Positions 43,288 through 45,163 of a DNA stretch of 64,000 bases are shown in pieces. Below the pieces are notes generated by a model. It worked only from the letters and a program-made list of their open reading frames with translations. It was not told where the DNA came from and ran no database searches. The translations under genes were made by a program, and so were the position numbers. Numbering within the stretch: position 1 is the stretch's first letter; every line of letters starts with the position of its first letter. Source of the DNA: Brachyspira murdochii DSM 12563 (GTDB lineage Bacteria > Spirochaetota > Brachyspiria > Brachyspirales > Brachyspiraceae); the NCBI RefSeq assembly GCF_000092845.1, contig NC_014150.1:1302001-1366000 (forward strand). The letters run 5' to 3'.

Positions 43288-45015
43288 TTATACTATTTTT
43301 ATATTTTTAATTAATATATTTGTTCTAGTTAATATAGTTTCAATAAGTACTACTAGCCATATTGAACCTGATAAAAAAGTTCCTAAAGTTGCTGAAACAG
43401 GAATAGAAGTTTGAAAAGGCATTAAAAGTAAAACAAATAATATTAAAAATATATAATCTATTTTATAGAATTTATCTTTAATTAAAAATAATATGAGCAC
43501 AGGATACATAAATAATTCAGAATAATAAGCAGTTGTAGGAGTTTGTATAGATATTATTATTAATAACAGTACTTTTTTCCAATATTCATTTGCTACAAAA
43601 GAATATATTATTGATATTATAAAAAGTATAAATAGTATCATTTTTGATAAAGTAATACTAATTCCAAATTTAGATATAAATAATGCTAAACCATCTCTAA
43701 TAGGAAATAATTCAGAAAACAACTTTCCATTCGATATAAATTGAACAAAATTTTCTAAAAAACTATGTTTGTTAAAAAAGAAAAATGGCAGAAATACTAA
43801 ACCTAATGTTATTGAAGCCCCTATAACTATATCTTTATATCTTTTTTCTTGTAAAAGTAAAAAACCTAATAACACAGGGTAAACTTTCAATGCTGAAGCA
43901 ATACCTAAACATATTAATGCTATAATTTGTTCATATTTTTTTTCTGATTTATATAAACATAAAAACATTACTACGAATGCTGCAGTGTGAAACATTATAT
44001 TTGCCCTTTCTATTGTAAATATAACAGGTGTTGTTATAAATAATAATAAAGGAATTATATAATTATAATCCTTTTTACTATATAGTTTTTTTAAAAACAA
44101 AATAAAAAGTAATACAGCAATAAACATAAATATTACCAAAGACATATTAGATACAGGATCAACTTGAACGTCATACAAGCTCATATTAGCATAATTTCTT
44201 ATAATAGAGAAAGGATATATTAATAAATATGATAATGGCAAATAAGATTGATATGCCTGACCCAAAACATAGTCAAAGTAAGGATCTTTTCTAGCAATAA
44301 ATCTTAATACATTATAAAAGTCAGCAAATAAATCCCAACCACCTAATACAATATTCAATTGTCTTCCACCTTTATCTTTTATAAAGAAAATAATAAAAAG
44401 CAAAATAGTAAAAGACAATAGTAATACAAAAAGTAAAGGAACATTTTTTATAATCTTATTATCCGCATATTTAATAAATAAACTTATAAGTATTATGCTT
44501 CCTAATGCTATTAAAATTATATCTATATTTAGTTTAAATGCTAATACATATATTATATTATCTATTTTTTCATTATATTCCAATATTTTCTCAGAAATTA
44601 AATTACCGAAAGGACTTCCTCCTTCATCCATTTTAATTTCTTTAATAAAACTATTATTCTCTAATATCTTGTTAACATTAGGATAAACCATATATAAATC
44701 ACTATGTTTAAAAATCTTACTATAATACCCCATTTTTAAACCATAACTATAATTTGTAATAGCTTCATTTGTAAATATATAATTAGTAATAGCATTATTA
44801 TCTAATTTGTCATCTGTAGTAAAAATTTTTTTAGTTTCTTCTATATCAAATCCATTTAATTGTAAAGTTCTATTTATATGATTATCATCAAAAATAAAGT
44901 TAGACAAATAACCAACTCTTTCTTTACCTGCTGATGTATATAGAATTATAAAAGTTATAAAACAAATTATTAGTAATGAAAGACATATTTTAAAAAATAA
45001 ATTATTATTATTCAT
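43288..45015 (-). CDS. GT87-like integral membrane glycosyltransferase
   Basis: 575 aa with about 11-13 membrane segments. A first helix (about 8-26) is followed by a large soluble loop (about 27-160) and then a polytopic region. GGWDLFADFYNVLRF, ERANIMFHTAAFVVMFL and ASALKVYPVLLGFLLLQEKRY fit the GT87/DUF2029 family, which use polyprenyl-phosphate sugars in the periplasm. GGAG lies 6 bases before the ATG. The start codon overlaps the stop of a short leader frame whose reading depends on a GTTT repeat. It is the first main gene of the polysaccharide operon. Confidence 0.85.
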   Translation of the reverse strand: MNNNNLFFKICLSLLIICFITFIILYTSAGKERVGYLSNFIFDDNHINRTLQLNGFDIEETKKIFTTDDKLDNNAITNYIFTNEAITNYSYGLKMGYYSKIFKHSDLYMVYPNVNKILENNSFIKEIKMDEGGSPFGNLISEKILEYNEKIDNIIYVLAFKLNIDIILIALGSIILISLFIKYADNKIIKNVPLLFVLLLSFTILLFIIFFIKDKGGRQLNIVLGGWDLFADFYNVLRFIARKDPYFDYVLGQAYQSYLPLSYLLIYPFSIIRNYANMSLYDVQVDPVSNMSLVIFMFIAVLLFILFLKKLYSKKDYNYIIPLLLFITTPVIFTIERANIMFHTAAFVVMFLCLYKSEKKYEQIIALICLGIASALKVYPVLLGFLLLQEKRYKDIVIGASITLGLVFLPFFFFNKHSFLENFVQFISNGKLFSELFPIRDGLALFISKFGISITLSKMILFILFIISIIYSFVANEYWKKVLLLIIISIQTPTTAYYSELFMYPVLILFLIKDKFYKIDYIFLILFVLLLMPFQTSIPVSATLGTFLSGSIWLVVLIETILTRTNILIKNIKIV

Positions 45016-45163
45016 AAATTACTCCATAAAATACAAAGATTGTATTTAGTTTAATAAATATATTTTTGGTAATAAAGATAAAATTTATTTGATAGTGTTT
45101 ATTTTTATTTGATAGTGTTTGTTTGTTTGTTTGTTTGTTTGTTTGTTTGTTTGTTTGTTTCAT
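45008..45163 (-). CDS. Leader peptide containing the (GTTT)11 repeat
   Basis: A 51-codon frame starting ATG at 45163 directly before the repeat (MKQTNKQTNKQT...), with GGAAA about 6 bases upstream. It ends GVIYE with TAA at 45010-45008, overlapping the GT87 start (ATGAATAA). With 10 or 12 repeat units the frame hits TAA soon after the repeat, well before the GT87 start. It is probably a regulatory leader rather than a functional protein. An alternative start lies upstream at 45199. Confidence 0.5.
   Translation of the reverse strand: MKQTNKQTNKQTNKQTLSNKNKHYQINFIFITKNIFIKLNTIFVFYGVIYE
45117..45160. repeat. Microsatellite (GTTT)11
   Basis: Eleven perfect tetranucleotide units (44 bases), AAAC on the minus strand, upstream of the GT87 gene. 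Next to it, ATTTGATAGTGTTT is present twice as a direct repeat (about 45087-45120). Confidence 0.97.

Follow-up and report, generated by a model that had tools for sequence, protein, structure and literature searches.

The glycosyltransferase gene and its upstream region

The window, by which we mean the whole 64 kb stretch of DNA analysed, belongs to the gut spirochaete Brachyspira murdochii and carries on its minus strand a gene for a polytopic glycosyltransferase of the GT87 family (Table 1). The protein matches PF09594 with residues 258-425 (E 2.8e-12; 47.3 bits versus a curated cut-off of 25), and no relevant solved structural homolog was found by sequence. The gene is followed by dTDP-sugar and GT2 genes, and the neighbourhood is probably an LOS/surface-glycan gene cluster. 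Homologs of the GT87 protein occur in 25 of 26 Brachyspira genomes and were mostly recognized via the N-terminal 210 residues. Many proteins of 600-960 aa without a Pfam match also share the conserved residues 1-212 but differ in their C-terminal parts.

The start codon of the GT87 gene (45015-45013) is overlapped by the TAA (45010-45008) of a short leader reading frame on the same strand, which is the geometry of a coupled gene pair. Directly after its own ATG (45163-45161) the leader runs into a tetranucleotide repeat (TRF: 45116-45160, 11.2 units, 100% match), and a sigma-70-type promoter pattern sits directly upstream of this ATG, so that the leader should be part of the transcript. Taken alone the promoter match is weak, since the pattern scan of the region found 38 sites compared to 33.5 in shuffles. 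No transcription terminator was found in the region scanned around the leader. A 20-bp tandem duplication (45084-45124) that is absent from homologous leaders follows right after the repeat. A sequence model of the leader (R1) detected a single copy in the B. murdochii genome (E 3.5e-12). Further upstream, a degenerate insertion-sequence-like element (about 45226-46300) ends 11 nt before the promoter and adjoins a gene for a phage terminase large subunit (46379-47749) on its other side. Its two ORFs gave no match in a Pfam search, its end has further matches elsewhere in the B. murdochii genome, and a similar sequence adjoins a leader in another Brachyspira genome (G011, L083).

Table 1. Features of the GT87 locus and of the two other repeats in the window.
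Feature	Position	Strand	Basis
Sigma-70-type promoter TTGACT-N16-TATGAT of the leader/GT87 transcript	45188..45215	-	pattern scan (10/12) and conserved position
GGAAA, Shine-Dalgarno-like, of the leader	45168..45172	-	sequence; recurrent SD-like triplets in homologous leaders
Leader ORF, 51 codons, TAA overlaps GT87 start	45008..45163	-	translation, phase table
(AAAC)11 simple sequence repeat, starts at leader codon 2	45117..45160	-	sequence, TRF
Post-repeat leader segment, ~100 nt, homologous to leaders of other Brachyspira	45016..45116	-	alignment A1
GGAG, Shine-Dalgarno of the GT87 gene, within leader ORF	45022..45025	-	sequence
GT87-family polytopic glycosyltransferase, 575 aa	43288..45015	-	Pfam PF09594
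(AGCAG)8, 3' end of epimerase gene	42242..42281	-	TRF, Pfam, frame recalculation
(AACAG)15, near 3' end of GT2 gene	39735..39810	-	TRF, Pfam, frame recalculation

The repeat is a perfect tandem array whose unit length is not divisible by three, as expected for a contingency locus. We recalculated the reading frames for each unit number. Counted from the GT87 ATG, the stop of the leader lies at +5 if there are 11 units, at -72 if there are 10 or 13 and at -92 if there are 9 or 12; as far as geometry goes, the repeat number thus sets whether the frame productive for GT87 is read. The 20-bp duplication contributes early stops, and because of these a single phase is coupled at this locus. A sequence-only reading of the window had described an ATG with a GGAAA site followed directly by (GTTT)11, a frame of 51 codons whose TAA lies over the GT87 start, early stops with 10 or 12 units, only one of three phases ending on that start, and a GGAG belonging to the gene itself. 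The description of ATG, GGAAA and repeat is exact to the base, GTTT being the plus-strand reading of a repeat whose leader and gene lie on the minus strand; translation and the recalculated frames bear out the frame length and its end as well as the fate of the other phases, and the GGAG is seen at 45025-45022. Whether another phase could fuse the leader to GT87 was also considered; stops in the recalculated frames rule this out. Leader and gene lie in different frames that no phase fuses, and the locus does not qualify for classical phase variation within an ORF. The genome of strain 56-150T was finished with Sanger and 454 reads (PMC3035287), and the unit number is that of this one finished assembly. 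Plasmid copies of the locus were sought for a strain comparison, with no match.

Other repeats in the window and in the B. murdochii genome

Only three perfect arrays of at least five copies with units of 4-7 nt are present in the window, (AAAC)11 among them. The other two had been credited with the same logic despite their different unit length, and this fits what the frames indicate. (AGCAG)7 in place of (AGCAG)8 would end the epimerase frame at 42155, overlapping the ATG of the dTDP-sugar isomerase gene (42156). The frame of (AACAG)15 in its present phase runs to a stop at 39651, which leaves 26 nt to the start of the following GT2 gene; the other phases stop earlier, and the unit number thus sets how far this start lies from the stop of the GT2 gene before it. 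Both repeats are thus compatible with the coupling logic of the GT87 leader, and coupling between cistrons may be phase-variable, too.

In the 3.24 Mb of the B. murdochii genome there are only two arrays of five or more AAAC units, each directly after an ATG, and both begin at codon 2 behind a TTGACT-N16-TATRAT promoter. The second one (L004, G000:C1:462962) has 34 units fused directly to a membrane-protein gene; 33 units would open a frame of more than 460 aa, and the present number corresponds to the off state. Judged by these frames, L004 is an ordinary fused contingency gene.

Repeat leaders across Brachyspira

We compared 26 Brachyspira genomes and read the upstream DNA of 52 GT87 homologs. 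The leader sequence model added 20 leaders in six of the other genomes that were searched with it, besides the one in B. murdochii, and after removal of duplicates 38 loci with a repeat just after an ATG remained. Once loci were mapped to genomes, they covered at least 19 of the 26 genomes, counting L084/L085. The order of elements recurs: promoter, ATG with Shine-Dalgarno sequence, repeat, a leader of about 100 nt and the glycosyltransferase start. The post-repeat leader is clearly homologous in many loci (alignment A1). Repeat units, by contrast, vary and include AAAC, AACAAGC, ACAAC, CACTA, CACTT, TACAA and GTCTACA. Unit lengths are 4 nt in 21 loci, 5 nt in nine, 7 nt in seven and 9 nt in one; 6 nt does not occur, and all lengths but one shift the frame. 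Even the nearest full-length homolog of the GT87 protein (G009, 70% identity) has a different unit, (AGCAACA)16.6, at the same position. Some members of the family have a leader without repeat or no leader. The latter also holds for a GT87 homolog of a sister species (L043 in G005, 86% identity) with five internal stops, a gene that by these stops appears to have decayed.

Both homologs and near-identical loci in different species vary in repeat number. Over 471 nt, L097 and L098, which belong to two species, share 95% identity and have 11.4 and 10.2 units, one of them being uncoupled and the other coupled at present, and L053 and L069 (88% identical) have 10 and about two units, respectively. 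Two coupled phases are available in 19 of the 38 loci, one in 17, including the B. murdochii GT87 locus, and none in two. One coupled frame in the genus ends with TGA at +1 (ATGA) and another with TAA at +8, which is +5 at the B. murdochii GT87 gene. The present phase is coupled in 20/38 loci, near the share expected under free drift among the available coupled and uncoupled states.

Inferred transcription and translation of the leader, and its constraint

A promoter score of at least 10 (of 12) was reached by 97% of the homologous leaders compared to 9.6% of the shuffles, with the -10 element mostly ending 20-32 nt before the ATG. SD-like triplets precede the leader ATG in 30 of 38 cases versus a background of 19.5%. 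From these signals we infer that the homologous leaders are very probably transcribed and initiated. A transcription start downstream of the repeat would undermine any role of the leader frame but is unlikely, though not excluded, given a promoter upstream whose position is kept in nearly all homologous leaders. An untranslated leader is likewise unlikely without being excluded, considering the recurrent SD sequence and the avoidance of stops across species.

Frames that end at the gene start (-16 to +14) number 56 in the 38 leaders; shuffles that preserve the first bases of the gene gave 11.5 +/- 2.9 with a maximum of 20. When the substitutions of each sequence were relocated at random, stops in the two non-gene frames turned out to be avoided (4 versus 14.2 expected, P 0.0005, and 10 versus 23.0, P 0.0015), whereas those in the gene's own frame were not (53 versus 55.9 expected). 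These P values overstate the significance because related sequences are treated as independent. Most leaders have a stop near -75, at a conserved position, that closes the gene's own frame. A leader peptide conserved as a functional product was considered and rejected (BLOSUM z 0.24 for the peptide frame and 2.7 for the other open frame). The third-position excess is weak and confined to close pairs (367/322/425), and as far as such comparisons can tell, constraint on the leader's amino acids is weak at best. The leader would therefore act as a track for ribosomes more than as a peptide.

The repeat could instead work by its length, altering the 5' UTR, mRNA stability or spacing, with an untranslated leader. 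The Shine-Dalgarno sequence of the glycosyltransferase gene itself and the weak constraint on the leader's amino acids would agree with this. Still, we regard it as improbable: a mere change of length gives no reason for the lack of 6-nt units among the 38 leaders, for the avoidance of stops in just those two frames that lead up to the start of the gene, or for an ATG with SD sequence that abuts the repeat. Moreover, promoter spacing is unchanged since the whole promoter precedes the repeat, and no conserved RNA structure was detected in the aligned homologous leaders.

Leaders in front of other genes

The leader is not confined to GT87 homologs. It also precedes a second family of membrane-protein genes (L072, L081 and L085); B. 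murdochii has the fused 34-unit L004 as their ortholog (57-59% identity). L004 shares the promoter type and the repeat with these genes but lacks the leader. A leader with repeat further precedes a GT2 gene (L147) and, in L137 and L142, an epimerase gene with an 18-codon remnant before it, similar to the N-terminus of the GT87 family. We infer from these placements a shuffling of heads and bodies, which they suggest.

The fused L004 could be taken to support the idea that the leader has decayed from a fused N-terminus, goes back to an ancestral ATG(repeat)n-enzyme and has no present role. We consider this very improbable. The orthologs of L004 in three other species all carry the leader with overlapping stop and start, so that the fused form looks derived by leader loss; a phase that fuses leader and gene exists in only 1/38 loci, the gene's own frame is closed at a conserved stop position in most leaders, and the openness of the leader is maintained. 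Least credible of all is a neutral, slippage-prone repeat in untranslated intergenic DNA with a chance overlap of frames: such overlaps are cheap in AT-rich DNA and TGA arises at +1 whenever codon 2 begins with A, but this can hardly explain the excess of coupled frames over shuffles, the recurrence of unrelated units at the same place or their position before sugar-related genes.

Discussion

We propose as the likely reading of the locus, in the absence of expression data, that slipped-strand phase variation switches the translational coupling of the GT87 gene rather than the coding frame of the enzyme. Ribosomes would start at the leader ATG just 3' of the promoter and translate through (AAAC)n. 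If there are 11 units, they would terminate at the TAA on the GT87 start and reinitiate, that is, the gene would be translationally coupled. Gain or loss of one unit by slipped-strand mispairing would shift termination to 72 or 92 nt upstream, and in this uncoupled phase GT87 would have to rely on its own GGAG. Since this site gives a basal level, high and low rather than on and off states are expected, and the outcome would be that one membrane glycosyltransferase switches in a graded, heritable and reversible manner. The low state may even be far from off because the SD sequence of GT87 is good and nothing predicts its masking. Slippage in B. murdochii, the strength of coupling, a change in expression, an effect on surface sugars and the transfer activity of GT87 are all inferred.

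The distribution of the leader raises the possibility of a portable Brachyspira cassette consisting of promoter, ATG, frame-shifting repeat and a leader of about 35 codons. It could be placed before different glycan genes and would make their coupling phase-variable. Of the three frames of its leader, that of the gene would be closed and the other two kept open; where both of these are open, two of three phases would be coupled, which amounts to a built-in bias towards this state. We put this forward tentatively, at somewhat less than an even chance. A repeat moved from the enzyme to a coupled leader would keep the protein intact and allow graded switching; it would also permit more than one productive phase and any gene behind it. 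Annotation pipelines miss a switch in the leader, as the gene taken by itself seems intact. Natural variants are many, with different units, without leader or in fused form, and offer a direct way to test the mechanism.

Simple repeats that drive phase variation are a textbook feature of Neisseria and Haemophilus. In Brachyspira the surface LOS is variable and of importance for hosts and for typing. Contingency loci with simple sequence repeats in surface-glycan genes, such as lic/lex2 of Haemophilus influenzae and lgt of Neisseria, switch by slipped-strand mispairing; loci of this kind are described in general terms in PMC3711429. They share with the Brachyspira loci a tandem repeat right after a start codon, with a unit length not divisible by three, and the connection to surface-sugar genes; switching by gain or loss of units would be common to both as well but is inferred for Brachyspira. 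In lic/lex2 and lgt the repeat lies in the enzyme's own frame, whereas at the GT87 locus it is part of a separate leader frame and the start codon and protein of the enzyme remain intact in every phase, so that switching would occur via coupling and be graded. The overlap of an upstream stop with a downstream start (ATGA, or TAA at +5/+8) is shared with translational coupling in operons. Unlike there, the upstream frame is a short leader with a slipping repeat, and coupling itself would become heritable and switchable. Attenuator leader peptides and uORFs are also short translated ORFs upstream of a gene, but the Brachyspira leader comes without a conserved RNA structure or terminator, and its variable is the repeat number rather than a ligand.

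Translational coupling and phase variation driven by repeats are known individually. They have been treated as separate classes of frame transition (PMC3711429). In the open-access literature we found no repeat-driven phase variation for these Brachyspira loci and nothing on point that combines repeat phase variation with coupling; subscription literature was outside this search.
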